Below are positions 15,081-40,270 of a stretch of DNA of 64,000 nt, in pieces. The stretch covers positions 1 through 64,000 of IMG/VR virus record IMGVR_UViG_3300002835_000043. The stretch is one strand, 5' to 3'. Under the pieces are notes generated by a model. It did not search any database and was not told the origin of the DNA. It saw nothing but the letters and a program-made list of their open reading frames with translations. Made by a program: the position numbers and the translations under genes. Position 1 is the first letter of the stretch. Every line of letters starts with the position of its first letter. The DNA is from a virus.

Positions 15081-16139
15081 GTGAAGATTGAAGATGATGT
15101 AAAACTTGATTTTGCAGATGTTTTGATTCGTCCAAAGCGAAGTAACCTTGATAGTCGTAGCAAGGTTGATGTCGAACGCACATTTAAATTTAAACTACCC
15201 AGTGGTGAATTTGTATGGAGAGGTGTCCCTATTGTAGCCGCTAATATGGATACAGTTGGTACATTTGAAATGGCAAACTCTCTTGCAGATTACGGTGCTA
15301 TGTGTGCTATTCACAAGTATTACTCTGAAGAAGATTGGGGTCGTGAAGCAAGTTCATGGTTGAGAAAACATTCTGGTCTTTGTGGATTGATTTATACAAT
15401 GGGAATGGGAAACGATTCCACAACATTAACAGAAATTCAAAAAGCAGAAAAGATATTAAATGCACATAAGCATGTTCGGTTTATTTGTCTTGATGTTGCA
15501 AATGGATATACTGAAAAGTTTGTAAATTATGTTAAAACCATTCGTGGTTTATTTCCAGATCATGTTATTATTGCAGGTAATGTTGTTACCCGTGAGATGA
15601 CTGAAGCACTGATTCTTTCTGGTGCAAACATCATCAAGGCAGGAATTGGACCAGGATCTGTCTGCACCACTCGTAAGGTTGCTGGTGTGGGTTATCCTCA
15701 ACTCTCCTGCATCATGGAGTGTGCTGATGCAGCACATGGGCTTGGTGGTTATGTGCTATCAGATGGTGGTTGTACTTGTCCGGGTGATGTAGCAAAGGCA
15801 TTTGGTGCTGGTGCAGACTTTATTATGATTGGTGGTATGTTTGCAGGAACTGATGAGTCTGCAGGACAAGAAACAGAGAACGGTAAAGAGTTCTATGGTA
15901 TGTCATCTGCTACAGCAATGGAAAAACATTCCGGTGGTGTTGCTACTTATCGTGCAGCAGAGGGTAAGAAGGTATTTGTTAAAAAGACTGGACCAGTTGC
16001 AAATATTATGCAACAGATTCTTGGTGGTGTCCGTTCTGCTTGCACATATGTTGGTGCAGCAAGACTTAAGGATCTGTCAAAGTGTACAACTTTTATTCGT
16101 GTCAATCGTCAGTTAAATAACATATTTCAAGAAAATTAA
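15081..16139 (+). CDS. guaC: GMP reductase
   Basis: The 352-residue protein has the IMPDH/GMP reductase barrel. The active-site loop [13 protein letters not shown] (186-198, catalytic C195) followed by G-V-G-Y-P-Q is diagnostic of GMP reductase, and S-D-G-G-C (about 227) and I-G-G-M-F-A-G line the phosphate site. There is no CBS insertion, and length fits GuaC. It converts GMP and NADPH to IMP and ammonia. With the PurA-like enzyme at 16942 it forms a route from guanylate to adenylate. The start is GTG or ATG near 15081 with AAAGGAAAC upstream. Confidence 0.92.
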
Positions 16140-16197
16140 AATTTGAATATTTGCATTTGACCCTGAAAAAAAATCTTATAAAACTTTACTTTTTTCC

Positions 16198-16225
16198 TTG
16201 CGGAGTCCGATAAAAGTCGTATACT
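16198..16225 (+). promoter_or_regulatory. Sigma70-like promoter ahead of the tRNA region
   Basis: TTGCGG (16198-16203) and TATACT (16220-16225), 16-base spacer. TATACT lies in the palindrome CGTATACTATACG, which could be an operator. It precedes the structured leader and the first tRNAs. Confidence 0.65.
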
Positions 16226-16516
16226 ATACGAGTCAGAGAAAATAACAAAGGAAACACACTATGAAGCACTTTGATAATAATATTATGTGGTTACATTAAA
16301 ATTACTTTTATTGTTTATAGTATTATATTATTAAATAAGGTTTGTCGGTATGCACCGAGAGCAGATCCGAGCGAGACAGAAATGGTTTACGGAAAACCAC
16401 TGCAGTCTCTCGACTACAAAACCGTTTCACTGGTTGGTTTACGGTTCCTGATACGAAGGTGATGAATGCCCGTAAGGCAGTAGTAGTTACCGGATACAAC
16501 CAAAACCGTCTTTTAT
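16226..16516 (+). ncRNA. Candidate structured RNA leader before the tRNAs
   Basis: Only a 12-codon frame (16261-16299, after AAAGGAAACACACT) is plausible here. From 16345 to about 16505 the sequence is clearly richer in GC than its surroundings and folds: TCGGT/ACCGA (16345-16358); TGGTTT/AAACCA (16383-16399) enclosed by GAGAC/GTCTC; and GCC/GGC near 16469. GGTTTACGG and AAAACCG each occur twice. This may be a small RNA, a processed leader or a tRNA-processing signal. No known family recognised. Confidence 0.35.
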
Positions 16517-16589
16517 GCCCTCTTAGCTCAGTTGGTAGAGCAGTTGACTTTTAATCAATAGGTCGTAGGTTCAATTCCTACAGGGGGCA
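16517..16589 (+). tRNA. tRNA-Lys (UUU)
   Basis: Acceptor stem GCCCTCT/AGGGGGC, D arm TAGCTCAGTTGGTAGAGCA, anticodon loop CTTTTAA (anticodon TTT), T arm GTAGG-TTCAATT-CCTAC, discriminator A. CCA is not encoded (A followed by CTT). It reads AAA/AAG, abundant in the phage genes. Confidence 0.95.
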
Positions 16590-16594
16590 CTTTT

Positions 16595-16667
16595 GGGATG
16601 GTAGACCAACGGCAGAGTCGGGACACTCAAAATGTCCATAGTGTGGGTTCGAATCCCACCCGTCCTA
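16595..16667 (+). tRNA. tRNA-Leu (CAA), short variable loop
   Basis: Acceptor GGGATGG/CCGTCCT, anticodon stem GGACA/TGTCC, loop CTCAAAA (anticodon CAA), T arm GTGGG/CCCAC, discriminator A. The variable region is only about five bases (ATAGT), whereas bacterial leucine tRNAs normally have a long arm. CCA not encoded. Confidence 0.85.
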
Positions 16668-16682
16668 CTCAGGAGAATAATA

Positions 16683-16949
16683 ATGATTGACAATCCGTAT
16701 AATGAACTGAACGATCATACCTTTCTGATATATCTTGCACAGAATGATTACATGATTGATGGTCACTTTCTTCCTGAAGGCAAACGACTGATGGAGATTG
16801 CTAATAAATTACAGGAGAGAGCAATGTTTATTTTTGGTGACGGTAAATCTGAACCAATCATAGACTTCAAAGCAGAAAAATACAAGAAGTCTCAGGAAGC
16901 AATGGATAGACTCGCACAACTTGATGAGGAGTTGGGATTAAATGATTGA
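16683..16949 (+). CDS. Hypothetical helical protein (88 aa)
   Basis: ATG 16683 has AGGAGAATAATA directly upstream; the open frame extends back into the tRNA and is rejected. The product is acidic and mostly helical (FKAEKYKKSQEAMDRLAQLD), with a small N-terminal region rich in N and D. It overlaps the purA start by eight bases, so the two are co-translated; perhaps a small partner of that enzyme, but this is only context. Confidence 0.7.
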   Translation: MIDNPYNELNDHTFLIYLAQNDYMIDGHFLPEGKRLMEIANKLQERAMFIFGDGKSEPIIDFKAEKYKKSQEAMDRLAQLDEELGLND

Positions 16950-17934
16950 TTATGTAGATGTGATATATGGTTTAGCATGGGGCGATGAAGGCAAGGGAAA
17001 GATTTCTAATGCTCTTGCTCCAAAATATGATTATGTTTGTCGTTGGAACGGTGGACCAAATGCTGGTCACACTGTTTATGTAAATGGACAAAAATTTAAA
17101 ACTCATATTATTCCATCCGGTATCTTTGCAGGTAAGAAGTGTGTAATTGGACCGGGATGTGTAATTAACCCAGATAAATTCTTTGAAGAGATCCGTGGAC
17201 TTCGTGCAGCAGGATTTGATACTTCTCTTATCAAAATTCATCCAAATGCACATATTATCACCGAAGAACATATTGAGTGGGACAAGAAGAATCTTGGTCA
17301 CTTAGGAACAACTTCTCAAGGAATTGCTCCTTGCTATTCAGATAAGATGTTGCGTAGAGGTAGGAGAGCAAAGGAATATTTTATTTCGGAGTGGTTGTGG
17401 GATGGTGAACTATCAGGTAGAGTGCTTTGTGAAGGAGCACAAAGTGTTTGGCTTGATATTGATCATGGTGATTATCCATTCGTAACTAGTAGTTCAACAA
17501 TGCCATACTCTGCATGTTCTCTTGGTTTCTCTCCGAAGAAGATTCGCAGATTGATTGGTGTTGCAAAGGCATATGATACAAAGAGTGGTAAAGATCCACT
17601 CTTCCCCGAAACATTATGGAATGATCCCGTACTGAATCGAATTATTGAGGAGGGTCAAGAATTTGGTTCTACTACGGGTCGTAAACGATTGGTGAATTGG
17701 TTGAACCTTGATAAGTTGAAGAAGTCTATCGTCTTATCGGGTTGTACTGAACTCATCATAAATAAGTGTGATGTTCTCAAGAAGGTTGGAGAATTTAAGG
17801 TCATTCATGGAAATGAATACATGAATTGTACAAGTTTTGCTATGATGTCTGCTTATATTCAAGATACTTTAATGTTTAGTAGTGGTTCGGATTTACATGA
17901 AATTACTTTCTCTGGTGATAAGGAAAGTATTTGA
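16942..17934 (+). CDS. purA: Adenylosuccinate synthetase (PurA-like, short form)
   Basis: W-G-D-E-G-K-G-K (13-20) is the GTP-binding loop with catalytic D15, and N-A-G-H-T (40-44) supplies the catalytic His43; G-A-Q-S-V-W-L-D and T-T-G-R-K-R are also conserved. It joins IMP and aspartate using GTP, giving adenylosuccinate. At 330 residues it is about 100 shorter than typical bacterial PurA and is nearer the length of archaeal PurA and phage PurZ. PurZ enzymes, which make the 2-aminoadenine precursor, usually replace the catalytic Asp; here it is kept, favouring a PurA (or a PurZ0-like intermediate) role. Neighbouring guaC supplies IMP. Confidence 0.88.
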   Translation: MIDYVDVIYGLAWGDEGKGKISNALAPKYDYVCRWNGGPNAGHTVYVNGQKFKTHIIPSGIFAGKKCVIGPGCVINPDKFFEEIRGLRAAGFDTSLIKIHPNAHIITEEHIEWDKKNLGHLGTTSQGIAPCYSDKMLRRGRRAKEYFISEWLWDGELSGRVLCEGAQSVWLDIDHGDYPFVTSSSTMPYSACSLGFSPKKIRRLIGVAKAYDTKSGKDPLFPETLWNDPVLNRIIEEGQEFGSTTGRKRLVNWLNLDKLKKSIVLSGCTELIINKCDVLKKVGEFKVIHGNEYMNCTSFAMMSAYIQDTLMFSSGSDLHEITFSGDKESI

Positions 17935-23849: not shown

Positions 23850-23920
23850 GCGTGTATGATGTAGTGGTAACATATTAGATTTCCAATCTTATCTCGTGAG
23901 TTCGAATCTCACTACACGCT
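23850..23920 (+). tRNA. tRNA-Gly (UCC)
   Basis: Acceptor GCGTGTA/TACACGC, loop TTTCCAA (anticodon TCC) on a stem with one mismatch, T arm GTGAG/CTCAC, discriminator T. The D arm TGATGTAGTGGTAACATA is typical of glycine tRNAs. Confidence 0.92.
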
Positions 23921-23921
23921 T

Positions 23922-23929
23922 TATAAATA
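23922..23929 (+). promoter_or_regulatory. TATAAATA box between tRNA-Gly and tmRNA
   Basis: Exact T4 late consensus placed one base after tRNA-Gly and directly ahead of the tmRNA acceptor piece. It may give the tmRNA its own late transcription, or be part of the spacer in an AT-rich genome. Confidence 0.5.
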
Positions 23930-24195
23930 ATCTTTGATATCGTTGATCTTCAATGAAAGACAATCAGGACAGGGGTTCGATTCCCCTCGGCTCCACTTGA
24001 CGGGGCTGTACAGGTATTCGACTGGTGTTTAGTAAGGAAAAGGGAGATATTCGGGACAGGCAACGAGTCTCGTTAAAAAATAGTTGTAAACAATAATTGC
24101 TAACGAACTAGCAATGGCTGCTTGAAGCAGTGGGGAATGATTCACCCGCATCTGAACGAATCACGATTTGCAGTCAGAAATGATTGCAAATCATT
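23930..24195 (+). ncRNA. ssrA: Circularly permuted (two-piece) tmRNA
   Basis: The acceptor piece comes first: P2 strand AAAGACAATCAG (23956-23967), T arm AGGGG-TTCGATT-CCCCT (23971-23987), acceptor strand CGGCTCC (23988-23994) and discriminator A. After only six bases the coding piece begins with GGGGCTG (24002-24008), which pairs with that acceptor strand, then the conserved GGTATTCGAC and CTGGTGTTT (24022-24030), which pairs with the P2 strand. A reading frame at 24099-24125 gives A-N-E-L-A-M-A-A and TGA, like a proteolysis tag. A hairpin (24165-24192) probably ends it. tmRNA frees stalled ribosomes with SmpB. Outer ends are approximate. Confidence 0.88.
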
Positions 24196-24207
24196 TTGGA
24201 GGACTTT

Positions 24208-24363
24208 ATGAATAATGAACAATTACTTGCAATGTGTGATGAATTAAAAAATATTAGAGCAAATATTGCTCATCAACTTTCAAGAATTTCTGCAATTGAA
24301 AGAGTAGTAACAGATATTCTTTCTCCAAAGGAAGAAGTAAAAAATGAAGAACCTCAAAATTAA
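24208..24363 (+). CDS. Small coiled-coil protein (51 aa)
   Basis: ATG 24208 follows TTTTGGAGGACTTT, a strong ribosome site just after the tmRNA. The product (residues 4-40) is one amphipathic helix with heptads (LLAMCDELKNIRANIAHQL) and an acidic end. It overlaps the lipoprotein gene by 20 bases. Unknown function. Confidence 0.65.
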   Translation: MNNEQLLAMCDELKNIRANIAHQLSRISAIERVVTDILSPKEEVKNEEPQN

Positions 24364-27304: not shown

Positions 27305-28231
27305 ATGATTTACGAACTCCTAGTAGAGCAATTAGCACTAGTCATTCTTGAGAACCGTCTTTCCCTAGAGGAAGGCGGTTCTAGAATGAATCTTCCTATC
27401 GAAGATAGTAAGAGAAAATTCTTTCCATCAATTAGATCTTTAAAGAAACTAAATCCAAAAATGGTTTTGGTTTATGATAAAGAAGGAAAGGTAAAGAGAG
27501 TTCCAGAATCAGAAGTAAAGAATTATGCAGGATTAGCAGAAGCATACCTCTCAAAGTATTCTTATAGAACACCAAAAGAGACTATGGCTTCTCGTGTTAC
27601 AGTAGATCCAAAGACAGGTGAAGAAAAATCTGCAAAGACATTTACTGCAAAAATGGATGCAAACGCAGATTTAGAAAAATTACAAACTTTAAAAAATAGA
27701 GTTAAAGAAACAGGTAAACAACATGAAGTATCCTTTATTGGCAAAAAAGGACCACAACTTCAACCACAAAAGCATAGAGAAATTGAACATAAATTAGAAG
27801 TAAGAATGCATATGGGAGAACCACATGTATTTCACAAGGGTGAAAAAGTTCAATTAAGAGCAACAGGAAATGGTGTACATATTGTTGCACCCGGCGAAAA
27901 AAATGATAGAATAGTAGCACACACAGGAATGTTGAGTTCACCACATTTTGGTGGTGCTGCAACAAGAAGAGCAATTCAAACTGGTCGTTCAGTAGAACAA
28001 ACAACACAAAAGCAAGCAGAGAGAAGAAAACGAGTTGCTAAGAAGGTTGCAAAGAAGAGAAGACTTTCAAGTGAAGTTAAAGCAAAGGCAGCAGCAGTTC
28101 AAGGAAAGGCAAAGAAGTTAACTCCTCCACCCGTAGCACCTGCTCCAGCAGCACCCGAAAGCGGTAAGAGTGAAATTGGTGAATTTAGAAGTAGAATTGC
28201 AGATATTATGAAGCGTATGAGAAAAGGATGA
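27305..28231 (+). CDS. Basic structural or head-internal protein (308 aa)
   Basis: It starts three bases after the previous gene. N-terminal hydrophobic helix with I-L-E-N-R-L-S-L-E-E-G-G (an L-x-E-rich segment), a middle with strands, then an A/K/R-rich second half (AERRKRVAKKVAKKRR, about residues 236-251) and a Pro/Ala linker. Strong positive charge suggests DNA contact in the capsid. No recognised family. Confidence 0.65.
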   Translation: MIYELLVEQLALVILENRLSLEEGGSRMNLPIEDSKRKFFPSIRSLKKLNPKMVLVYDKEGKVKRVPESEVKNYAGLAEAYLSKYSYRTPKETMASRVTVDPKTGEEKSAKTFTAKMDANADLEKLQTLKNRVKETGKQHEVSFIGKKGPQLQPQKHREIEHKLEVRMHMGEPHVFHKGEKVQLRATGNGVHIVAPGEKNDRIVAHTGMLSSPHFGGAATRRAIQTGRSVEQTTQKQAERRKRVAKKVAKKRRLSSEVKAKAAAVQGKAKKLTPPPVAPAPAAPESGKSEIGEFRSRIADIMKRMRKG

Positions 28232-28236
28232 AGTAA

Positions 28237-28887
28237 GTGAAAAAATTTAATCATGTACCTGTTGAACTAAAAAATAAACTAACAACTAAAGAAATAGACG
28301 GAAAAAGATACTATGTTACAGAAGATGGTAATTCTTATCCGTCTGTAACTACGGTTACAGGTTGGGAGAAGAGAGAGTTCTTTGCTGAATGGCGAAGAAA
28401 GAATCCAGAAGAATCAAAAAGAGTTCTTCGCCGTGGAAATAAGTTCCACTCAATTATAGAAGCATATTTAAATAATGAAACAATTAATCCTGATGATTAT
28501 TCACCGGGTGAATATTATTTGTTTTCACAATTAAAGTCAGAACTGAATAAGATAGACAACATTAGAGCACTCGAAACCGCACTACAATCCTCTCTGTTGG
28601 GTTTGGCAGGTAGAGTTGACTGTATTGCAGAGTTCGCTGGCAACTTGTCTATAATCGATTTTAAGACCTGTTCTGCTGAAAAGGGCAAGGACAGTATCAA
28701 GGAATATTTTATGCAAGCAACTGCATATGCAATTATGTTCCAAGAACAAACTGGTATACCTGTAAAAAACATTGTTATCCTTATGAGTTGTGAAGATGGT
28801 TCTATAACTGTATTTGAAGAAAATCCTTTGAATTATACAAAACTACTTAAAGAAACCATCGAATCATTCATGATAAATAATTCATGA
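28237..28887 (+). CDS. PD-(D/E)XK nuclease, RecB-like exonuclease (216 aa)
   Basis: The motifs of the RecB/MGME1-type nuclease appear in order: G67-x3-H71, E113, G-R-V-D128, I-I-D141-F-K143 and Q160-x3-Y164. The core reads L-A-G-R-V-D-C-I-A-E-F then S-I-I-D-F-K-T. Such phage enzymes degrade or process DNA ends, single-strand preferring in the MGME1 branch. Start GTG/ATG at 28237 with GAAGTAAGT upstream. It stands between head-internal genes and the glycan cluster. Confidence 0.85.
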   Translation: MKKFNHVPVELKNKLTTKEIDGKRYYVTEDGNSYPSVTTVTGWEKREFFAEWRRKNPEESKRVLRRGNKFHSIIEAYLNNETINPDDYSPGEYYLFSQLKSELNKIDNIRALETALQSSLLGLAGRVDCIAEFAGNLSIIDFKTCSAEKGKDSIKEYFMQATAYAIMFQEQTGIPVKNIVILMSCEDGSITVFEENPLNYTKLLKETIESFMINNS

Positions 28888-28888
28888 G

Positions 28889-29833
28889 ATGTCAGACAAA
28901 TACTTTCCAGCAAATACATGTGTTTTAGCGTGTTCGGGACCATCTCTGAACACAATTGATCCTTTTAGTTTGGGATTACCTGTTGTTGCAGTTAGTACAG
29001 CAATAAGAAAAATAACAAAACCACATTTTTGGATTATTGCTGACTATTTAAATGAGATGCATGGAATAGAAGGATCACATGCTTATTCTGATCCAGATAT
29101 AATAAAAGTTTTACCAGAAGGCAAAGTATCAAGTGGAGCAAATGCTCAAAGTGTTGTTTTGTGTAATTATGACACAAATACTCGTTGGCCAGATGTAGAG
29201 TCTGTTTTATTTAATGGTGCACAACCATTTATAAGAGGACCACATAAATCCGTAACATTTGCCATCCAATGGTTACATTATATTGGTGTAAAAAATGTAA
29301 TTTGGGTTGGTAATGATTTAAAAGCAAATAGTATGAAAGAGAAATATTGTTACGAGGTTCAAGAGTTTGATATGAAGAAGGCTTATAATTATGATAAGAC
29401 TTTGGATCAAACAGCAGATGCACTCAGACAATGGCACCCAATAGCATTAAAAAGAGGATTCAAATGGTTTTCTTGGAATTGTGGTGAAGTTTTTGAATCA
29501 TTTGTTCCAAAATTTGACCTGAATTGGTGGGAAAGCGAGGGGAAAGAGCAACTAAGACAGTATGCTCCAATTACCTTTCCAACAGTAGATATTCCAGCAT
29601 ATCAACCTACTCCCAAAATAGAAAAACCAGTACAAAAAAATGAAATACAAGTTTTAAGAAAACAACACCAACAACCACAACAACCATCACAGAAAAAAGA
29701 ACAACCAAAACCTTTCAATAAAGATGCGTATTTAACATCACCATATACTCCAAACATGACTGGTAATCATTCACGAAGAGAAATTAGAAAAAATGAAATG
29801 AATGTGAAAAAACAATTACGAGCACCAAAATGA
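28889..29833 (+). CDS. Glycan-cluster protein with GPSLN motif (DUF115-like)
   Basis: The N terminus V-L-A-C-S-G-P-S-L-N (11-20) and W-I-I-A-D near residue 50 resemble the nucleotide-binding part of the 6-HMPPK-like/DUF115 (MAF) family, which acts in surface sugar or sialic acid transfer. A second conserved part, V-I-W-V-G-N-D, follows at about 140. The last 80 residues are P/Q/K-rich and disordered. It opens a run of coupled glycan genes; exact activity unknown. Confidence 0.65.
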   Translation: MSDKYFPANTCVLACSGPSLNTIDPFSLGLPVVAVSTAIRKITKPHFWIIADYLNEMHGIEGSHAYSDPDIIKVLPEGKVSSGANAQSVVLCNYDTNTRWPDVESVLFNGAQPFIRGPHKSVTFAIQWLHYIGVKNVIWVGNDLKANSMKEKYCYEVQEFDMKKAYNYDKTLDQTADALRQWHPIALKRGFKWFSWNCGEVFESFVPKFDLNWWESEGKEQLRQYAPITFPTVDIPAYQPTPKIEKPVQKNEIQVLRKQHQQPQQPSQKKEQPKPFNKDAYLTSPYTPNMTGNHSRREIRKNEMNVKKQLRAPK

Positions 29834-30450
29834 ATGAGTTTAAAATTATAAGTTTTTATACAGATAATGGAATCTATGCTGATATGGCAAAAAGATTAAA
29901 AGATTCCTGCAAAAAATTCAGTATAGAATGCGATATAGAAAAGTATAAAGACAGAGGTTCCTGGGTTGATAATTGTAATATAAAACCAGAATTTATATTA
30001 AAAAAATTAAATGAAGATGTCGATTGTGTTATATGGGTGGACTCTGATGCAAAAATAATGAGTTACCCATATTTGTTTTTAGACACGCCTATGGATTTTG
30101 GTGTTCGTGGAGAACCGGGAGCAAGAAAGAAAACTCCTGTTGGAAGAGAAGAAATAGAACTTCCAAAAAATTGGCCAGTTCAAACAGAACTGATGTGGTT
30201 TAATTCTGGTACTATGCTGTTTCGTAAATGTAAAAGTACAATAAGAATGGTTGAGAGATGGTTGGAACTATCTAAATCAATGACAAGATCATGGGATCAA
30301 TGGAGTTTACAGCAAGCGTGGGCAGATGTACAACCAACTACTGAATGGTTTCCACGAACTTATTGTCAGATAGATAGATTACACGGAAGAGACAAAGCAG
30401 TGGTTTTACATGATTTAGCATCAGTAATGCAGAGAGTGGATAGAAAATGA
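29830..30450 (+). CDS. Glycosyltransferase, GT-A type (206 aa)
   Basis: The C-V-I-W-V-D-S-D-A segment (about residues 65-73) carries a D-x-D metal/nucleotide-sugar motif after an N-terminal Rossmann-like half. F-N-S-G-T-M-L-F is typical of the acceptor side of such enzymes. Closest in the window is 31418 (S-W-V-x-N-C, V-I-W-V-D-S-D vs V-L-W-I-D-A-D), so the two are paralogues. It overlaps neighbours by four bases on both sides. Donor and acceptor unknown. Confidence 0.75.
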   Translation: MNEFKIISFYTDNGIYADMAKRLKDSCKKFSIECDIEKYKDRGSWVDNCNIKPEFILKKLNEDVDCVIWVDSDAKIMSYPYLFLDTPMDFGVRGEPGARKKTPVGREEIELPKNWPVQTELMWFNSGTMLFRKCKSTIRMVERWLELSKSMTRSWDQWSLQQAWADVQPTTEWFPRTYCQIDRLHGRDKAVVLHDLASVMQRVDRK

Positions 30451-31421
30451 AAACAGCATTAATAATTGGAGCGAATGGTCAAGACGCATCTTATCTTGCA
30501 GAATTTTTATTAGATAAAAATTATAAAGTTCATGGAACGATTCGTAGAAATTCTGTTCCGGAATCACAAACAACCAGAATACAACACTTACATGATGAAA
30601 ATAAAATAACATTACATTACATGGATTTGATAGATCCTATAAGTGTTGATTCTATAATAAAGCAAACACAACCAGATGAAATATATCATCTTGGTGCTCA
30701 ATCACATGTTCAAGTTTCTTTTGATTTACCAAAATATACACTAGATGTTAATTCTGGTGGAACTTTAGCAGTTTTAGAGGCTGTTAGAAGATTCTCTCCT
30801 CATTCAAAAGTATATCATGCAGGTACATCAGAAATGTTTGGTAATTCTTGTGACTCTGATGGGTTTCAAAGAGAAACAACACCAATGGTTCCAGTGAGTC
30901 CATATGGTTGTGCAAAATTATATGCACATACTCTTTGTAGAAACTATAGACAAGCATATAACATGTTCGTCTGTTCTGGGATATTGTTTAACCATGAGTC
31001 CCCAAGAAGAGGAATAAATTTCGTAACTAATAAAACCGTATTAGAAGCCGTTAAAATAAAATTAGGATTATCGGATAAACTTGTTCTTGGTAATCTAGAA
31101 GCAAAAAGAGATTGGGGTCATGCAAAAGATTATGTAGAAGCAATGTGGTTGATGCTTCAACAAGAAACACCAAAAGATTTTGTTGTTGCAACTGGTGAAA
31201 CTAGATCAGTTAAAGAAATGATCGAATATGTTTTTTCAAAATTAGAATTGGATCCTTGGAAATATATTAAAACTGATAAAAAGTATTTAAGACCAGAGGA
31301 ATTAAATTATCTAAGAGGTGATTCTACAAACATAAGACAAGTTTTAAATTGGAAACCAAAATATACTTTTGAACAAATGATGGATGAAATGATTAATTAT
31401 TGGCTGAATGAATTACAATGA
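30447..31421 (+). CDS. gmd: GDP-mannose 4,6-dehydratase
   Basis: Short-chain dehydrogenase fold with G-A-N-G-Q-D-A (8-14) for NADP, catalytic T127/S128/E129 and Y153-x3-K157 (S-P-Y-G-C-A-K), and R-R-G at 185-188 as in Gmd. Length 324 is slightly under the bacterial 345-370. It makes GDP-4-keto-6-deoxymannose, the precursor of GDP-fucose, GDP-rhamnose and GDP-perosamine. The second enzyme (GDP-fucose synthase) is not found in this window, but two fucosyltransferase-like genes are. Confidence 0.93.
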   Translation: MKTALIIGANGQDASYLAEFLLDKNYKVHGTIRRNSVPESQTTRIQHLHDENKITLHYMDLIDPISVDSIIKQTQPDEIYHLGAQSHVQVSFDLPKYTLDVNSGGTLAVLEAVRRFSPHSKVYHAGTSEMFGNSCDSDGFQRETTPMVPVSPYGCAKLYAHTLCRNYRQAYNMFVCSGILFNHESPRRGINFVTNKTVLEAVKIKLGLSDKLVLGNLEAKRDWGHAKDYVEAMWLMLQQETPKDFVVATGETRSVKEMIEYVFSKLELDPWKYIKTDKKYLRPEELNYLRGDSTNIRQVLNWKPKYTFEQMMDEMINYWLNELQ

Positions 31422-32044
31422 AATATCCTATAACTATAACATTTTATACACCTGAATATAAAGAAGAAGCAAGAAAATTAGAAGAAACTTGTAAATTATT
31501 TAATTTACCTTTTTATTCATATGAAAAACCAAGTAAAGGTTCTTGGGTTCATAATTGTACAATGAAAGCAGAAGTAATTCAGGATGCTTTGTATTTACAC
31601 AAGCACCCTGTTTTGTGGATAGATGCTGATGGCAGATATAAATCACATCCAAATATATTTGATTCAAATGAATTGTATGAATGTGATTTTGGTGCTTATT
31701 TTATTCCTGATGTTTGGAATCAACCAAGAAATGTACATTTAAGACCTTGGGGATTTGATAGAGGTAACGAAGCATTAGCAGGCGGCACTATGTTTTTTAA
31801 TTATACAGATAAGTGTTTTAATTTAATAGATGATTGGAAAAAAGAAAGTCAAGCAAATCCAACAAGATGGGAACAACAAAGTCTTCAAAAAGTTTGGGAT
31901 AAATACGATAGAGATGGTTTAAAAACATACTTCTTCAATCAAGCGTATTGCAAAGTATTTGATTGTAAATGGTTTGAAGAACCGAAAGAAATAGTTGTAG
32001 AACATACACAAGCAAGTAGACGGTTAAAAGGAAATATAAGATGA
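31418..32044 (+). CDS. Glycosyltransferase, paralogue of 29830 (208 aa)
   Basis: It has G-S-W-V-H-N-C and V-L-W-I-D-A-D-G (about residues 68-75), the latter a D-x-D motif, followed by A-G-G-T-M-F-F-N. The arrangement copies that of the gene at 29830. Overlaps the gmd stop (ATGA) and the next start. Substrate unknown; likely part of the same glycan pathway. Confidence 0.75.
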   Translation: MKYPITITFYTPEYKEEARKLEETCKLFNLPFYSYEKPSKGSWVHNCTMKAEVIQDALYLHKHPVLWIDADGRYKSHPNIFDSNELYECDFGAYFIPDVWNQPRNVHLRPWGFDRGNEALAGGTMFFNYTDKCFNLIDDWKKESQANPTRWEQQSLQKVWDKYDRDGLKTYFFNQAYCKVFDCKWFEEPKEIVVEHTQASRRLKGNIR

Positions 32045-32721
32045 TAATAGATTTAAAGAGTATAAAAAAAGTTTATATAAATCTTGATCGTGATGTTGAT
32101 AGAAAAAATAAATTTGAAAATATAATTAAAGAATTACAGTATACAAATATTGATAGGTTTTCAGCAAGACTATTGCCCAAAATAAGAGATTTTAATCATG
32201 GTTGTAGTCAAAGTCATCATGATTTGATGAATCAATATAAAAATGAATTACCATTATTTTTGATGGAAGATGATGCAAAACCAACTAAATGGTATGATGA
32301 ATATGTAAATGATGGTAAAATAGAAGTACCAGATGGTGCAGATGTGATCTATATTGGATTTTCAACTGCAGGTTGTTGGAAAAATTTAGGAGTAGATTTT
32401 TGTGCAAAACCATATAATGAAAAATGGGTAAGATTAAAACATTGTTTGGGAACTCATGCTATGATTTTTTTAAATAATAACATACAAAAATTTATAGAAA
32501 ATTCTGGAAGTACGATACAAAGAAAAGTACCTCTGGATATTGGTTATGCTAAAGAAGTTTTACCAAATTTAAAAATTTATGCACCAAAAAAATCATTATT
32601 CTATCAATGGGATAAATGTTGGATAACTACTAATACCACTGTTGATGTGGATAATAATAAATGGACTTCCCATAATGAGGACGGAACAATAAATTTTATT
32701 AGGGATTATATAAATGCTTGA
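32041..32721 (+). CDS. GT25-family glycosyltransferase (LPS galactosyltransferase-like)
   Basis: Typical start V-Y-I-N-L-D-R-D-V-D-R-K (11-22), then G-C-S-Q-S-H (54-59) and L-F-L-M-E-D-D-A (73-80), the three hallmarks of glycosyltransferase family 25 found in lipooligosaccharide synthesis. C-L-G-T-H-A-M-I-F follows further on. Length 226 fits. It transfers a hexose, often galactose, to a glycan or protein; acceptor unknown. Confidence 0.85.
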   Translation: MIIDLKSIKKVYINLDRDVDRKNKFENIIKELQYTNIDRFSARLLPKIRDFNHGCSQSHHDLMNQYKNELPLFLMEDDAKPTKWYDEYVNDGKIEVPDGADVIYIGFSTAGCWKNLGVDFCAKPYNEKWVRLKHCLGTHAMIFLNNNIQKFIENSGSTIQRKVPLDIGYAKEVLPNLKIYAPKKSLFYQWDKCWITTNTTVDVDNNKWTSHNEDGTINFIRDYINA

Positions 32722-33556
32722 TTTTACAGATTGTACATTTTTAATACCATATAAAAATAGTAATAAAGATAGAGAAAATAATTTACTACATGTATTGCGT
32801 TATTTAAATACTTTTTTAAAAACAAATGTTGTAGTTATTGAACAAAAAAATAATATATTAACCAATACTTTAAATATAATAAATTCTAAACATTTTAATA
32901 ATATTTCTTTAATTTATAAAGAATATGATAGTGGTCATAATTTTAATTTTCATAAAACTAAATTATATAATTTAGGAATGCAAGAAATAAAAAATGAAAT
33001 AGTTATACCATATGATGCTGATGTTTTAATACCATTAAGTCAGTTAGTAGAAGCAAGAAATAGCATAAAACAAGGATTTGATTATTGTTTTCCTTTTAAT
33101 ATGAATTATATTGAAATTTCAAAATTATTACCGGATGATAGAGAAACTCTATTAACTGATTATAATTTTGAAAATTATAAAATTAAAGCATCTTGTAAAC
33201 ATGAAGAAAATTCAAAAAAAATTTACAGTAAAATTCCAGGTATAGTTAGAGGATGTCCTCCAGGCGGTTGTCTTTTTATAAAAAAACAAGTTTATATAGA
33301 TTTTGGATTAGAGAATGAAGATTTTTATGGATATGCTCCAGAAGATATAGAAAGAAAAGATAGATTAAAAAAACTTGGTTATAGTGGAACTTCGATAGAT
33401 GGTGATATCTATCATATAGAACATCACACAGAAGATAGAAGAATAGCATCTACAGATTCTAAAAATTTGTATGCTGATATTTCCAGAATGGATGCTAATA
33501 CTATAAAAGATTATTATAGTAAAAAAAATTATAAAAATATATATGGATTAAAATAA
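32714..33556 (+). CDS. Glycosyltransferase, GT2/GT7-like (280 aa)
   Basis: GT-A fold with T-F-L-I-P-Y-K-N-S at the start and P-Y-D-A-D-V (about residues 97-102) as D-x-D motif. G-Y-A-P-E-D-I-E-R-K-D-R-L-K-K-L-G-Y (about 216-233) resembles the G-x-E-D-x-(E/D)-x2-R-L signature of GT7 galactosyltransferases and chondroitin-type polymerases. P-G-G-C-L-F-I supplies the preceding loop. Substrate unknown. Confidence 0.8.
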   Translation: MLDFTDCTFLIPYKNSNKDRENNLLHVLRYLNTFLKTNVVVIEQKNNILTNTLNIINSKHFNNISLIYKEYDSGHNFNFHKTKLYNLGMQEIKNEIVIPYDADVLIPLSQLVEARNSIKQGFDYCFPFNMNYIEISKLLPDDRETLLTDYNFENYKIKASCKHEENSKKIYSKIPGIVRGCPPGGCLFIKKQVYIDFGLENEDFYGYAPEDIERKDRLKKLGYSGTSIDGDIYHIEHHTEDRRIASTDSKNLYADISRMDANTIKDYYSKKNYKNIYGLK

Positions 33557-33557
33557 T

Positions 33558-34307
33558 ATGAAAGTTTATATAGATTGGCATTATGATATAGATCCATCAC
33601 CAATAAACACATGGTCTAGAACAAAAAATATTCATGAGTGTGATATAGTTGTATCCGTTAATAAAAACAAATTTTATGATAAAAAAACTATTAATTGGTT
33701 ATACGAACCAGAATCTATAATATCAAGTGTATATAAAAATTGTTTAAATTCAAACAATTATATTGCTACTCACAGAGTAGATTCATCATTTAATAAAAAA
33801 ATTACTATACCACCTTGTTTTCCATCTTGGATCGATGAGTGTGATAGAAAAATTTATAATAAAACAAAATTAGTAAGCATGGTAGCATCTAAGAAAAATA
33901 TATGTTCAGGTCATTCAATAAGACAACAAGTAGCAGATGCTAATGAAAATAATTTGGATTTATATGGATTTGGTAGAAAAAATCAATTAGATAAAAAAAT
34001 AGAAGGACTAAAAGATTATATGTTTTCTGTTGCTATGGAAAATAGTGTGGCTGATATTTATTATACAGAAAAACTATTAGATTGTTTTTTAACAGGAACA
34101 ATTCCAATATATTGGGGATCAAAAAAAATAAATGATGTTTTTGATAAAAATGGTATTATATTTTTAAATGATGATTTCACAATACCTGAAATAAGTGAAG
34201 AAATTTATATATCAAAATTAAACTCAATTAAAAATAATTTTGAATTAGCCCATAAATATAATTATAAAGCCTCAGATGGTATACAGTTTATAACGGAACA
34301 ACTATGA
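33558..34307 (+). CDS. GT10-family (alpha-1,3/4-fucosyltransferase-like) enzyme
   Basis: Its second half holds the GT10 signature: F-S-V-A-M-E-N-S (about 155-162), then Y-Y-T-E-K-L-L-D-C-F-L-T-G-T-I-P-I-Y-W-G (167-186), which binds the GDP-fucose donor in the family. The N-terminal half is shorter than in bacterial enzymes from Helicobacter (249 against 400 or more). Together with gmd and a GT11 homologue it suggests fucose-like decoration. Donor could also be a related GDP-deoxysugar. Confidence 0.87.
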   Translation: MKVYIDWHYDIDPSPINTWSRTKNIHECDIVVSVNKNKFYDKKTINWLYEPESIISSVYKNCLNSNNYIATHRVDSSFNKKITIPPCFPSWIDECDRKIYNKTKLVSMVASKKNICSGHSIRQQVADANENNLDLYGFGRKNQLDKKIEGLKDYMFSVAMENSVADIYYTEKLLDCFLTGTIPIYWGSKKINDVFDKNGIIFLNDDFTIPEISEEIYISKLNSIKNNFELAHKYNYKASDGIQFITEQL

Positions 34308-35050
34308 AAAAAATACACATAAATTATGCGGCACTAGGAACTAATCACAATTACAACCACCCAAATGGTGGTTATTTTAATGCTCAGATGTTGAATAGTT
34401 CAACAGCAAAAACTGTTGCAGGATTCGATGAAAGTATTAATTATAAAATAGAAAGTTTACCAGAAGATTTTAAAACAAAACATTATCAACATTTTTCACA
34501 TACCAGAGGGGCTGGTTATTGGATTTGGAAACCTTATATAATTTTAAATCATTTAAAAAATAAAATGAATGATGATGATTTATTGATGTATACTGATTCT
34601 GGTTGTCACTTTATTAATAATTTAAATCCTTTATTTAACCGTTTAAATGATACACAAGAAAAAGTTTTAGTATTTAATCTCGCTCAAATAGAAAAAGATT
34701 GGACAAAAAGAGATTGTTTTATAAAATTAAATTGTGATACCCCAGAATTTACCGATAGCAAACAGATAATGAGTACATTTTTTCTTTGTAGAAAAAATGA
34801 TTTTGCAATAAATGTCGTGGAACAATGGTATAATGAAATTAGTGATTTTCATATGGTTTCTGATGAATATATTTCTCCATCAAAAACACCAAATTATCCA
34901 AGTTTTAAAGAACATAGACATGATCAATCTATTTTAAGTCTTGTTTGTAAAAAAAATAATGTAGAATTTATGGAAGATATAAGTCAATGGGGAGATCCTA
35001 TTAAGAGAAATATGCCACAACTTGTTGCACATACAAGAAAAAGAGATTAA
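34304..35050 (+). CDS. Glycosyltransferase-like protein (248 aa)
   Basis: R-G-A-G-Y-W-I-W-K-P-Y-I-I (about 68-80) followed by L-L-M-Y-T-D-S-G-C matches a family of poorly studied capsule/LPS glycosyltransferases with W-(I/L)-W-K-P and D-x-G motifs. H-D-Q-S-I-L-S-L near residue 205 is the typical late motif of GT-A enzymes. Overlaps GT10 by four bases. Activity unknown. Confidence 0.7.
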   Translation: MKKIHINYAALGTNHNYNHPNGGYFNAQMLNSSTAKTVAGFDESINYKIESLPEDFKTKHYQHFSHTRGAGYWIWKPYIILNHLKNKMNDDDLLMYTDSGCHFINNLNPLFNRLNDTQEKVLVFNLAQIEKDWTKRDCFIKLNCDTPEFTDSKQIMSTFFLCRKNDFAINVVEQWYNEISDFHMVSDEYISPSKTPNYPSFKEHRHDQSILSLVCKKNNVEFMEDISQWGDPIKRNMPQLVAHTRKRD

Positions 35051-35058
35051 GGATATTT

Positions 35059-35823
35059 ATGAAAATACAAAAAGTAATACATGCATGTGATGATAAGGAA
35101 TTTTATTATGATTTTTGGCCAATTGTATCTAAAATTTGGAAATTAAAATTTAATATAGAACCAGTTTTATTATATTTTGGTACAAAAAATCCATCTACAG
35201 AATATGGTACTGTTGTTCATATGGAAATATTACCAGATATTCCGGTAAATACTCAATGTCAATTATCTCGATATTGGATACCAGTTACGGAACCAGATAC
35301 TATCTGGATGACATCTGATATTGATATGTTACCTATCTCTAGACAATATTTTATTGATAATATAAATCACATATCTGATGATAAATTTGTTGCGTTAAAT
35401 TCAGATCCAAGAGAAAAATATCCAAATTTGTTATATTCTTGTTGTTATAATGTTGCACAAGGGAAAACATTTACAGATCTATTAGGCATTTTACCATCAT
35501 GGAAAGATTTTATGTCATCTGGATTTTGGAAAGAAAATACACATAATTATAAACCTGATGGTCTATCTGATGCTTTACCTCATTGGGGGGCAGATGAAAT
35601 GTGGTCTAGTAAAAAAATAAACCAATATCATGATCAAAATAGAATAATTCGATTACATAGAGATTGTGGTAGACACAGATGCCATAGAATAGATAGATTA
35701 GAATGGAACTGGTCTGATGATAAAGTTAAAAATGAATATTATTATGATTGTCATAGTATAAGACCATATAAAATACATAAAGAATCTATTGATAAATTAG
35801 TAAATTTAATAATAAATAAATGA
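35059..35823 (+). CDS. Probable glycosyltransferase (254 aa)
   Basis: Starts eight bases after the previous stop with AAGGATATTT. The motif T-S-D-I-D-M-L-P (about 86-93) looks like the D-x-D of GT-A folds, and H-W-G-A-D-E-M-W (about 174-181) like the late acidic motif. The N-terminal part is a Rossmann-like sheet. Coupled with the following gene. Donor and acceptor unknown. Confidence 0.65.
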   Translation: MKIQKVIHACDDKEFYYDFWPIVSKIWKLKFNIEPVLLYFGTKNPSTEYGTVVHMEILPDIPVNTQCQLSRYWIPVTEPDTIWMTSDIDMLPISRQYFIDNINHISDDKFVALNSDPREKYPNLLYSCCYNVAQGKTFTDLLGILPSWKDFMSSGFWKENTHNYKPDGLSDALPHWGADEMWSSKKINQYHDQNRIIRLHRDCGRHRCHRIDRLEWNWSDDKVKNEYYYDCHSIRPYKIHKESIDKLVNLIINK

Positions 35824-36560
35824 ACATGATAAATTACGACGAATATATTTGGGGAGACAAATTTAAAAATTTATCTTCTTGTAATTTTGTAAAAATTGAT
35901 GATGCTAGGAGTTTTTTAAATAGAACATCAAAAATAAATAAAATTGTAACACACAATGGAGATTTACCAGTAGATGCATCATATCTCTCCCTTAAAGATA
36001 AATTTAATTTTTGGTTTGGACAAAATATAATTATTGATGATGAAAAAATTATACCTATACCAATAGGACTGGAAAATGATTATGTTCCAAATTCAATACA
36101 AAAAAAACATATGCTACATGACTATAGTAATAAAAACATAATTATTAAAAAATTGTTATATATTAATCACAATATTGGTACTAATCATGCCGAAAGAATA
36201 ATTCCTTATAATTTGTTTCAAACTAATAATTTTATTACTATACACAGTTGTGATGGATTTGGTGGTCAAAATTCATATTATACAAATATTAAAGAACATG
36301 AATTTATTCTAAGTCCACCCGGAAACGGGTTAGATTGTCATAGAACATGGGAAATATTATATCTTGGAAGAATTCCTATTTTAAAAAATATTGGTTCTCT
36401 TAAAAAATTATACAGCAATCTTCCTGTTATTTTTATTGATAAATACGAAGAAATCACAGAAGATTTTTTATTAAATAAAAAAAATGAATTAAAAAATAAA
36501 TCATTTAATTATAATAAATTAAAATTTAGTTATTGGAAAAATTTAATAGAACAGGAATGA
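35820..36560 (+). CDS. Exostosin-like (GT47-type) glycosyltransferase (246 aa)
   Basis: The C-terminal half has F-I-L-S-P-P-G-N-G-L-D-C-H-R-T-W-E (about 164-180), then L-G-R-I-P-I-L, the donor-binding signature of exostosin-like GT-B enzymes (S-P-x-G-x-G-x-D-x2-R-x-W-E). ATG at 35820 or 35826; the first overlaps the preceding stop. Known members transfer GlcA, GlcNAc, galactose or xylose in polysaccharides. Confidence 0.78.
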   Translation: MNMINYDEYIWGDKFKNLSSCNFVKIDDARSFLNRTSKINKIVTHNGDLPVDASYLSLKDKFNFWFGQNIIIDDEKIIPIPIGLENDYVPNSIQKKHMLHDYSNKNIIIKKLLYINHNIGTNHAERIIPYNLFQTNNFITIHSCDGFGGQNSYYTNIKEHEFILSPPGNGLDCHRTWEILYLGRIPILKNIGSLKKLYSNLPVIFIDKYEEITEDFLLNKKNELKNKSFNYNKLKFSYWKNLIEQE

Positions 36561-36567
36561 AAAAATT

Positions 36568-37347
36568 ATGATAACAGTAAATTTAATGGGAAGACTTGGT
36601 AATAATTTATTTCAATTAGCAACATGTTTATCACTAGCAAATAAAAATAATACAAAAGCTTACTATTGTAAAAATGAATCAAATATAAATGTATTAGAAT
36701 TACCGGATATTCAATACACTTCTTCAAATGCTCCAAATGTATTTTCAGAAAAAAAATTTAATTACAATGAAGAATTTGAAAATTTAACAGATAATACACA
36801 TTTACATGGTTACTTTCAATCGGAAAAATATTTTAAAAATTGTAAAGATTTAATACTAAAAAATTTTTCATTTAAAGAATATGTAAAACAAAATGTAAAG
36901 ACTAATGGTTATTCTGATATTGAAAATATAACAAATCAATATACAGCAATTCATATAAGAAGAACAGATTATCTAACAATACAACATGCTCACCCAATTT
37001 GTTCAAGAGAATATTATATAAATTGTTTAAATGAAATTTCACCATCCGGAAAAATTTTAATTTTTTCTGATGATTTAAATTGGTGTAAAGAAAATTTTAT
37101 AGGAGATCAATATGTTCATGTAAATTTAGATCATCATTGTTGCTTATACATGATGACTAAAGTTAAAAACATAGTAATAGCAAATAGTTCATTTAGTTGG
37201 TGGGGTGCATGGCTAAATAATAGACAAGACAAAAAGGTATATGCTCCAAAACAGTGGTTTGGGGACACTTTGCCATATAGATCTGCTGATATTAATCTGA
37301 CTAATTGTTTGAAGGATCTTTATTGTGAAGGGTGGAATGTAAGATGA
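36568..37347 (+). CDS. GT11-family alpha-1,2-fucosyltransferase-like enzyme
   Basis: G-R-L-G-N-N-L-F-Q at residues 8-16, A-I-H-I-R-R-T-D-Y (about 129-137) and N-S-S-F-S-W-W-G-A-W-L (about 208-218) are the three hallmark motifs of GT11, the H-R-R segment binding GDP-fucose. Length (259) is close to bacterial members (about 290). This is the second fucosyltransferase-type gene in the cluster, supporting a branched fucosylated or related 6-deoxy-sugar glycan. Confidence 0.9.
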   Translation: MITVNLMGRLGNNLFQLATCLSLANKNNTKAYYCKNESNINVLELPDIQYTSSNAPNVFSEKKFNYNEEFENLTDNTHLHGYFQSEKYFKNCKDLILKNFSFKEYVKQNVKTNGYSDIENITNQYTAIHIRRTDYLTIQHAHPICSREYYINCLNEISPSGKILIFSDDLNWCKENFIGDQYVHVNLDHHCCLYMMTKVKNIVIANSSFSWWGAWLNNRQDKKVYAPKQWFGDTLPYRSADINLTNCLKDLYCEGWNVR

Positions 37348-38084
37348 AAATTGCAATAATAGTTCTAAGTGGTGGTAAAGATATTGCTCATTCAAATGGT
37401 AAAACATATGATGAATTGGTTGATACTATAAAGGAAACATGGGCAAAAAGATTACCAGATAATGTCAATATTTTTTTTAATTACGGGTTTATACCAAATT
37501 ATGATAATAATCCAAAATTAGGTGAAACAAAAATTTATAAAGACATGTTATTACATGGTATAGAAGAATCATATGAAAATATGAATAAAAAAGTTTTAAA
37601 TTCATTATCCTATTTTGAAAAAGAAACCGATTATGATTTTATTTTTAGATGTTGTTGTGGTAGTTATATTAATGTTGAAAATTTAGTTAATTTTTTATCC
37701 AATAAACCAAAACAAAATTTTTATTGTGGTGTACCAACATCCTATAACCATAAAGGTGAACATTTTAATTTTGCATCTGGCTCTGGATTCTTTTTCAGTA
37801 AAGATGTATTAAAAATTATATCTAAAAATTTAAATAAAATGATAGATGAAGAAATAAAATTAGATGATGTTACTATAGGATATCATTTTAAAAAACTTGG
37901 AATAAATATTCATCCAGGGGCAAAAAGAAAAGATATAGGAGATTTACCGGAAAATAGACACCATCTTATTGATCTAAATTGTATAACAAAAGAAGATTTA
38001 TCACACTATCATTTTCATATGAGACACAATTCCCTTGGTATGAAAAAATTACATAATTTAATTGAAAATAAAATTTATTGTTAA
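37344..38084 (+). CDS. Fringe/GT31-like glycosyltransferase (246 aa)
   Basis: ATG 37344 overlaps the GT11 stop; a start 12 bases earlier is less likely. F-I-F-R-C-C-C-G-S-Y stands where D-D-D/T-D is found in GT31, then A-S-G-S-G-F-F-F-S (about 150-158) and D-D-V-T-I-G-Y (about 177-183), as in Fringe-like beta-3-glycosyltransferases. The usual D-x-D is altered here, which may mean changed metal use or low activity. Confidence 0.7.
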   Translation: MKIAIIVLSGGKDIAHSNGKTYDELVDTIKETWAKRLPDNVNIFFNYGFIPNYDNNPKLGETKIYKDMLLHGIEESYENMNKKVLNSLSYFEKETDYDFIFRCCCGSYINVENLVNFLSNKPKQNFYCGVPTSYNHKGEHFNFASGSGFFFSKDVLKIISKNLNKMIDEEIKLDDVTIGYHFKKLGINIHPGAKRKDIGDLPENRHHLIDLNCITKEDLSHYHFHMRHNSLGMKKLHNLIENKIYC

Positions 38085-38093
38085 AGGATTAAA

Positions 38094-38855
38094 ATGAAAA
38101 GTAGTATTTCTGATTACGAAAAATATAAAAATGTTTGTATCAAAGCAGTTGAAGATGATTTATTTTTTAAATCATTTCGTTCAAATAATGAATATATGGG
38201 AATATTGGAACATGTTTCATATGAATCTGGATTGGAATATTATAAACATTGTGTAGAAAAAAATAAAGTAGAATTTACAAATGATTTAATAAAAAAATTA
38301 AAAAAAACAGATTATTACGGGCTTCCTAACAGATATAAATTTGAAAAAATAGATGAGTTATCACCAACAATTTTAAGATATATTTCTGTTGCATCTGATA
38401 TTCATAGATTATATGGACCTTTAGATGGCAAAACGGTTGTTGAAATAGGAGCAGGATATGGTGGTCAATCTATGTTAATAAATTTATTATATAATATAAA
38501 AAAATATATCATAATAGATTTACCAGAAGTTATAGAACTTATAAAAAAGTTTTTAACAGTAAATAATATGGATATAGAAAAATATGAATTTTATTCATAT
38601 CCAAATATACCAACTATTAAAACAGATTTTTTAATATCAAATTATGCTTTTTCTGAATGTTATAAGAGTGTACAAGACATTTATATTAAAAATTTAATCA
38701 ATAACAGTAAAAATTTTTATATGGTTGTTAATTTTATATCAAATGATGTTTATAATAAAGAAGAATTATTACAAATGTTAAATGGAAATATAGTAGTAAC
38801 AAAAGAAGAACCAATAACAACAGATACAAATCTTTTATTTTATAAAAAGGATTAA
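38094..38855 (+). CDS. Putative sugar O-methyltransferase (253 aa)
   Basis: V-V-E-I-G-A-G-Y-G-G-Q-S (about 113-124) is the SAM-binding glycine loop. The region before, including Y-G-L-P-N-R-Y and S-P-T-I-L-R-Y, matches putative sugar O-methyltransferases from polysaccharide gene clusters. It likely caps a hydroxyl of a sugar in the glycan made by the neighbours. AAAGGATTAAA precedes the start. Confidence 0.8.
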   Translation: MKSSISDYEKYKNVCIKAVEDDLFFKSFRSNNEYMGILEHVSYESGLEYYKHCVEKNKVEFTNDLIKKLKKTDYYGLPNRYKFEKIDELSPTILRYISVASDIHRLYGPLDGKTVVEIGAGYGGQSMLINLLYNIKKYIIIDLPEVIELIKKFLTVNNMDIEKYEFYSYPNIPTIKTDFLISNYAFSECYKSVQDIYIKNLINNSKNFYMVVNFISNDVYNKEELLQMLNGNIVVTKEEPITTDTNLLFYKKD

Positions 38856-38858
38856 CAA

Positions 38859-39362
38859 ATGAAATCATATTCTCAATGCAAACAAGATTTATATGTTTTA
38901 GAAAAATTAAATAATAAAAAAGATGGCTATTATATTGAGATAGGTGCATATCACCCTACAGATATAAGTAACACAAAATTATTGGAAGAATTGGGTTGGT
39001 GTGGATTAAGCTTTGATGCCAATAATATTTCTTCCATATGGACATCTTTTAGAAAAAATGAATTTATATGGGCTGATGCTTTAAATTTTAATTTTAAAAA
39101 GTGTTTTGAGGAAAAAAATGTTCCATCGGAAATAGATTATTTATCATTAGATATAGATGAAGCAACATTAGGATGTTTAAAAATATTACCATTAAAAGAA
39201 TATAAATTTAAAGTTATTACACTTGAGCATGATGAATATTCACAAGGTTCTGCAAAAAAGAATGCTATGAGAGAAATTTTATTTTCTTATGGTTATAAAT
39301 TAGATAAACCAGATGTTAAAAATGATGGTCATATATATGAAGATTGGTGGTTAAGTTCATGA
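38859..39362 (+). CDS. FkbM-like methyltransferase (167 aa)
   Basis: S-Q-C-K-Q-D (5-10) and G-Y-Y-I-E-I-G-A-Y-H-P (23-33) are the entry to a SAM-binding domain, then D-Y-L-S-L-D-I-D-E and I-T-L-E-H-D-E, as in the FkbM family, which methylates sugar or polyketide hydroxyls. It is short but complete for this subgroup. It overlaps the epimerase start by four bases. Confidence 0.8.
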   Translation: MKSYSQCKQDLYVLEKLNNKKDGYYIEIGAYHPTDISNTKLLEELGWCGLSFDANNISSIWTSFRKNEFIWADALNFNFKKCFEEKNVPSEIDYLSLDIDEATLGCLKILPLKEYKFKVITLEHDEYSQGSAKKNAMREILFSYGYKLDKPDVKNDGHIYEDWWLSS

Positions 39363-40270
39363 ACATGTTAGTTACAGGTGGTTGTGGATTTATTGGTTCT
39401 AATATTGTTGATAGACTTTGCATATCAGAAAATTATAATGTAACAGTTATTGACAATCTTTCATCTGATGCCCATGATAAATTTTATTATAATAAAAATG
39501 TTGTTTATTATAAAGATGATATTAATAATAAACATATAGTAAATGGTATATTTGAAAGACATAGACCAGACTATGTTTTTCATTTAGCAGCAGAAGCAAG
39601 AATACAAAATTGTATAAATGAACCAACAAAAGCATTTAATACAAATACTGTTGGAACTCAAAACATACTAGAAGCATGTAGATTGTTTAATGTAAAAAAA
39701 GTAATGTTTTCAAGCACATCTGCAATTTATGGATTAAATGATACACTACCACAAACAGAAGTATTAAGTCCTAGTTGTCTGAACATGTATTCATATTCAA
39801 AATTGTTTTCTGAAGGATTATTTAAATTATATTCTGAAATGTATGGTATTGATAGCATATGTTTCCGTTATTTCAATGTTTATGGACCAAGACAACCTAT
39901 TCGTGGATCATATGCACCAGTAATTGGTGTATTTTCTAGACAAAAGAAAAACAATGAAAAAATGACTATTGTTGGGGATGGTTTACAAACAAGAGATTAT
40001 ATCCATGTTTCTGATATTGTTTCTGCAAATATAGCAGCAATGAATTGTGAACATAAATTAAATGGAAATATAATAAACATTGGAACTGGTAAATCTTTTT
40101 CAGTTTTAGATATTGCAAAGATGATGAATGGAGAGTATATTCATGTACCTGCAAGAAACGGAGAAGCACGACATACTCTTGCAGACATAACAAAAGCAAA
40201 AGAACTATTAAATTGGGAACCAAAATATAGTTTAGAAAAATACATGGAGAATAAAGAATATGATAATTGA
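39359..40270 (+). CDS. NAD-dependent sugar epimerase/dehydratase (GalE-like)
   Basis: ATG 39359 overlaps the preceding stop. V-T-G-G-C-G-F-I-G-S-N (5-15) binds NAD; S-S-T-S-A-I-Y-G then Y-S-Y-S-K (about 120 and 144-148) give the catalytic Ser and Y-x3-K. R-Y-F-N-V-Y-G-P-R-Q marks the UDP-sugar epimerase branch. It likely converts UDP-glucose-type sugars, supplying galactose or similar donor for the GT25/GT7-like enzymes. It is not the GDP-fucose synthase type. Confidence 0.88.
   Translation: MNMLVTGGCGFIGSNIVDRLCISENYNVTVIDNLSSDAHDKFYYNKNVVYYKDDINNKHIVNGIFERHRPDYVFHLAAEARIQNCINEPTKAFNTNTVGTQNILEACRLFNVKKVMFSSTSAIYGLNDTLPQTEVLSPSCLNMYSYSKLFSEGLFKLYSEMYGIDSICFRYFNVYGPRQPIRGSYAPVIGVFSRQKKNNEKMTIVGDGLQTRDYIHVSDIVSANIAAMNCEHKLNGNIINIGTGKSFSVLDIAKMMNGEYIHVPARNGEARHTLADITKAKELLNWEPKYSLEKYMENKEYDN

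Follow-up and report, generated by a model that had tools for sequence, protein, structure and literature searches.

The window, by which we mean the whole stretch of 64,000 nucleotides that was analysed, belongs to a 118,301-bp virus record. The record was found to be that of a T4-like myovirus, with genes for a gp32-like single-stranded DNA-binding protein, baseplate wedge, tail tube and baseplate hub. ARAGORN places 17 tRNA genes in the window and, within this array, a circularly permuted tmRNA gene was observed between tRNA-Gly and a short open reading frame (ORF) at 24208. The features of the locus, together with the evidence for each, are listed below.

23919-23931, plus strand: left copy of an imperfect direct repeat of about 13 bp, CTTTATAAATAAT, flanking the tmRNA gene (comparison with the relative L261)
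23936-23995, plus strand: acceptor piece with P2 strands, T arm, acceptor 3' strand and discriminator, start predicted (RF04321, ARAGORN, covarying helices)
23971-23987, plus strand: T arm with loop TTCGATT (RF04321 alignment, paired stem)
23988-23994, plus strand: acceptor 3' strand CGGCTCC, partner of 24002-24008, with G3-U70 formed by 24004 and 23992 (pairing in relatives)
23995, plus strand: discriminator A, end of the acceptor piece
23996-24001, plus strand: intervening segment CTTGAC, 6 nt (sequence; 12 or 122-134 nt in relatives)
24002-24192, plus strand: coding piece, 3' end predicted, with acceptor 5' strand GGGGCTG, D-loop analogue, P2 5' strands, tag frame, pseudoknot and terminal hairpin (ARAGORN, RF04321, covariation)
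24099-24125, plus strand: tag frame ANELAMAA*, GCT AAC GAA CTA GCA ATG GCT GCT TGA (ARAGORN, relatives)
24118-24130, plus strand: hairpin presenting the stop codon, CTGCT-TGA-AGCAG (2 compensated pairs)
24130-24163, plus strand: H-type pseudoknot, GTGGG/CCCGC and TGATTC/GAATCA (3 compensated pairs in stem 2)
24165-24192, plus strand: terminal hairpin of the coding piece (7 compensated pairs)
24204-24216, plus strand: right repeat copy, CTTTATGAATAAT, within which the downstream ORF begins (24208) (comparison with L261)

The gene was called by two programs. ARAGORN reports a permuted tmRNA (tmRNA*) at 23902-24216 with the tag ANELAMAA, and the Rfam model RF04321 (tmRNA_permuted) matches end to end at 23936-24125 with 87.6 bits (gathering cut-off 47 bits; E 1.9e-15 in a 64-kb search), which is the sole match to this model across the virus record. 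Its score, the order of its pieces, a P1 helix with G3-U70, a P2 helix joining the two pieces and a tag ending in Ala-Ala place it in this family. The first-pass annotation, made from the sequence alone, had proposed a phage-encoded permuted tmRNA whose acceptor piece precedes the coding piece, with P1 and P2 pairing between the pieces and a short ANELAMAA tag, and this description agrees with both programs and with the related phages considered below.

That annotation also took the permuted form as a clue to the host, and this part stands only weakly. The betaproteobacterial tmRNA model RF01850 was the sole one listed of three clade models, but its 66.2 bits lie below the gathering cut-off of 84 and the gene is therefore not a member; scanning the window at gathering scores gave no match to cyanobacterial RF01851 or alphaproteobacterial RF01849. 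The gp6 protein finds its closest counterparts in Methylophilales phage Melnitz and in the Pelagibacter phages Mosig and HTVC008M, at only about 34% identity, so the nearest cultured relatives are also a poor guide. Elsewhere in the window (15081-17934), a GMP reductase (NCBIfam NF003470, above cut-off) adjoins a short adenylosuccinate synthetase that the PurZ model matches weakly; from their predicted activities, the two enzymes would jointly turn GMP into precursors of AMP, as would fit a phage of 34% GC. A long series of ORFs, each of about 200-320 aa, occupies 27305-40270; a GDP-mannose dehydratase and a galactosyltransferase are among the predicted products, which points to a cluster of sugar or glycan genes carried by the phage.

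Relatives were gathered through the phage adenylosuccinate synthetase gene together with a tag-region pattern, and nine tmRNA copies were aligned. The scored pairs were picked from the window sequence, which biases the following proportions toward the window structure: P1 was paired in 63/63 cells, P2 in 68/68 over two counted parts, the T stem and the stop-codon hairpin each in 45/45, the pseudoknot in 93/96 (its stems 45/45 and 48/51) and the terminal hairpin in 103/107. Compensated changes are unaffected by that choice, and 18 pairs were observed to be altered on both sides with pairing kept, four of them in P2. The G3-U70 pair was found to be G-U in all nine copies. Tags in the relatives read ANELAMAA, ANRLAMAA or ANRMAMAA; the AMAA end is invariant and the codon changes are mostly synonymous, so that a tag-like frame is indeed conserved in related phages. 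The gene of L323 departs strongly from the others in its tRNA-like domain (T loop GGCAGTA, and the D region), which speaks against function there, although P1 and the inner part of P2 still pair. Judged by these comparisons of sequence, the phage tmRNA is maintained in evolution and is neither a chance product nor a relic.

We consider it very probable that the locus is a functional ssrA gene of permuted form carried within a phage tRNA gene array. We infer its processing, charging, tagging and benefit from the sequence as follows. The tRNA array would be transcribed and cleaved by RNase P at G24002, while 3' processing would trim the acceptor piece to A23995, so that the six-base segment is thrown away. 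CCA, which is not encoded at the gene, would be added post-transcriptionally and P1 and P2 would hold the two pieces together after processing. The G3-U70 pair would direct charging with alanine. Phage tmRNA would then act with host SmpB and EF-Tu to rescue stalled ribosomes, adding Ala-ANELAMAA. A search of the 118-kb record, which is possibly incomplete, revealed no SmpB gene, so that host SmpB would be needed. The probable benefit is the release of ribosomes stuck on mRNA that is broken in infection.

Three other explanations were weighed against this one. The position within a tRNA array might suggest that the likeness to a tRNA arose by chance, or that a fragment of a tRNA beside tRNA-Gly was misread, but the E-value obtained for the whole permuted model and the covariation of the helices that join the two pieces leave this explanation with a negligible probability. 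A captured host ssrA gene that is decaying and has no present function would agree with the clean deletion of the gene between short repeats in L261; this is very unlikely in view of the compensated pairs, the invariant G3-U70 and a tag that stays intact in the nine copies, its changes being mainly synonymous. Helix covariation and mostly synonymous tag change thus rule out chance and argue against decay.

The phage RNA might instead be a decoy or competitor of host tmRNA and not a rescuer, by analogy with phage DS6A, where a tag-less tmRNA-like RNA is reported to interfere with host tmRNA (PMC11915505). Such a role would draw on the fact that SmpB was not detected in the phage record and host SmpB would therefore be shared. 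We regard the decoy as unlikely since the coding frame, the stop-codon hairpin and the pseudoknot are all maintained and a decoy of the DS6A type needs none of these. A functional, ribosome-rescuing ssrA gene remains the reading that we prefer.

The locus was found in three states among the relatives. A gap of 6 nt occurs in the window, L266, L268, L271 and L326 (12 nt in L028), and a gap of 122-134 nt in L272, L285, L288 and L323; the tmRNA pieces of L272 are nevertheless 97.6-98.7% identical to those of the window. The third state is the absence of the tmRNA in L261 (7933-7960), whose purA is 100% identical to that of the window and which lacks everything between the imperfect repeats. The downstream ORF of L261 is not preceded by GGAGG, and we infer from this that loss of the tmRNA is likelier than gain. 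The gene is thus dispensable in L261. These near-isogenic phages (no tmRNA, a 6-nt gap, and a gap of about 122 nt with a tRNA-like RNA) would make it possible to ask how a phage benefits from its own tmRNA and what the intervening segment can carry.

The long gaps contain an RNA of about 110 nt, found at the following positions.

L272, 7166-7278: RNA of about 110 nt in the tmRNA intervening segment
L288, 1275-1386: the same RNA
L285, 4670-4781: the same RNA
L323, 954-1066, minus strand: the same RNA

All 124 of 124 helix cells are paired in these four distinct copies, and the four pairs that vary do so with changes on both sides (4/4), a signal which is abolished by shifting the partners. The RNA has the layout of a class II tRNA with no canonical decoding loop: a closing stem is followed by a 2-nt spacer, an arm, a 1-nt spacer, a second arm and a long two-part arm, and the last arm (5 bp, with the 7-nt loop UGCAAAU) stacks on the closing stem with no spacer. 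When 756 kb were searched with a covariance model trained on the four copies, nine matches outside the training set were obtained up to E 10; eight of the nine, the best ones (Leu and Ser) included, are tRNA genes, aligned end to end. ARAGORN did not call it a tRNA, no specific Rfam match was seen at E up to 5 and a full-length match was absent from the phage and plasmid records searched; broader searches returned the same four contigs. The insert, known from four contigs, thus appears to be new relative to the sources searched. The Rfam scan gave no support for a likeness to the T-loop hairpin found in twister-sister ribozymes. The gap of the window was also considered as an eroded copy of the element, and no clear remnant was seen past its first bases (CTT).

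Between L272 and L288 the RNA is 89.7% identical, whereas the coding piece of the window-clade tmRNA is only about 78% identical to that of L288, so that the two clades differ less in the RNA than in the surrounding tmRNA. Gains or losses of the RNA in two clades suggest either mobility or repeated loss. Our best guess, drawn from its predicted fold and position, is that the tRNA-like RNA may be freed from the discarded segment by RNase P together with enzymes that process 3' ends. The segment is cut out anyway and may for that reason tolerate small genes; that the gap is such a site, and that the RNA is perhaps a mobile or regulatory tRNA-like element freed by the same processing enzymes, is put forward tentatively, at somewhat less than even chances.

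Other cargo was noticed in such segments. In another phage contig (L348), the gap of a candidate permuted tmRNA, which starts near position 405, contains an intact tRNA-Ser(tga) gene, and a published permuted tmRNA, nominally archaeal, has a tRNA-Ala in its intervening sequence (PMC11915505); together these indicate that the intervening site can host tRNAs. Small ORFs, some of them hydrophobic (for example MFENWHWVYIWGIIVFVNYMFWIIKSLFD), recur where the gap of a candidate phage tmRNA of permuted form measures about 100 nt: in L334, L342, L344 and L364, in L350, L351 and L352, and in L354, L366 and L382. Outside the gap, in the region 641-1720 of L323, tRNA-Gly is separated from the acceptor piece by a 176-aa ORF that looks by eye like an HNH homing endonuclease.

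The first-pass annotation had considered the six-base gap to be far shorter than usual, which is incorrect. A pattern scan of one-genome-per-species bacterial contigs, allowing gaps up to nine bases, found at least 67 loci with a gap of exactly six, nearly all Prochlorococcus, and gaps of about 7 bases, encoded CCA included, in Accumulibacter/Rhodocyclaceae (betaproteobacterial), these counts being lower bounds and not frequencies. A similar scan of viral contigs for gaps of 2-32 nt, again giving lower bounds and not frequencies, found gaps of 4-8 nt in 45 of 121 among the matches listed (the window and S-SSM7 left out) and of exactly six in 13. Short gaps are thus ordinary in both kinds of contig, and the six-base gap was ruled out as a novelty. 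The window gene is a well-supported addition to phage-encoded trans-translation, and it corrects the view that such a gap is special.

Permuted tmRNA is a kind already known in phages, with published examples. The two-piece tmRNA of Methylophilales phage Melnitz has been described, and 53 distinct putative two-piece tmRNAs were counted in phage genomes, 50 of the 53 marine or aquatic (PMC9004378). Covariance models identified such a gene in each of Melnitz, Mosig, HTVC008M and S-SSM7. The bacterial permuted tmRNA of RF04321 resembles the window gene in gene order, P1 with G3-U70, P2 bridging the pieces, T arm, tag frame and pseudoknot; the window gene differs in being phage-borne, in its 8-residue tag and in the one pseudoknot identified. 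Melnitz ssrA and the tmRNAs of Mosig and HTVC008M are likewise permuted genes of T4-like myoviruses of aquatic bacteria, but their tags (ANDNYVPVDYALAA, GEDNFALAA and ANFNEYALAA) differ from that of the window, and Melnitz is reported with a glutamine riboswitch. Synechococcus phage S-SSM7 (GU071098, 21008-21227) also carries a permuted tmRNA, with a gap of 5 nt, although it is of the cyanobacterial type (RF01851, 109 bits) with a tag of 31 residues; its record annotates a hypothetical protein alone and no tmRNA. Prochlorococcus ssrA shares with the window gene a gap of exactly six bases (CTATTT) and the unencoded CCA, whereas it is a bacterial gene with the tag ANKIVSFSRQTAPVAA.
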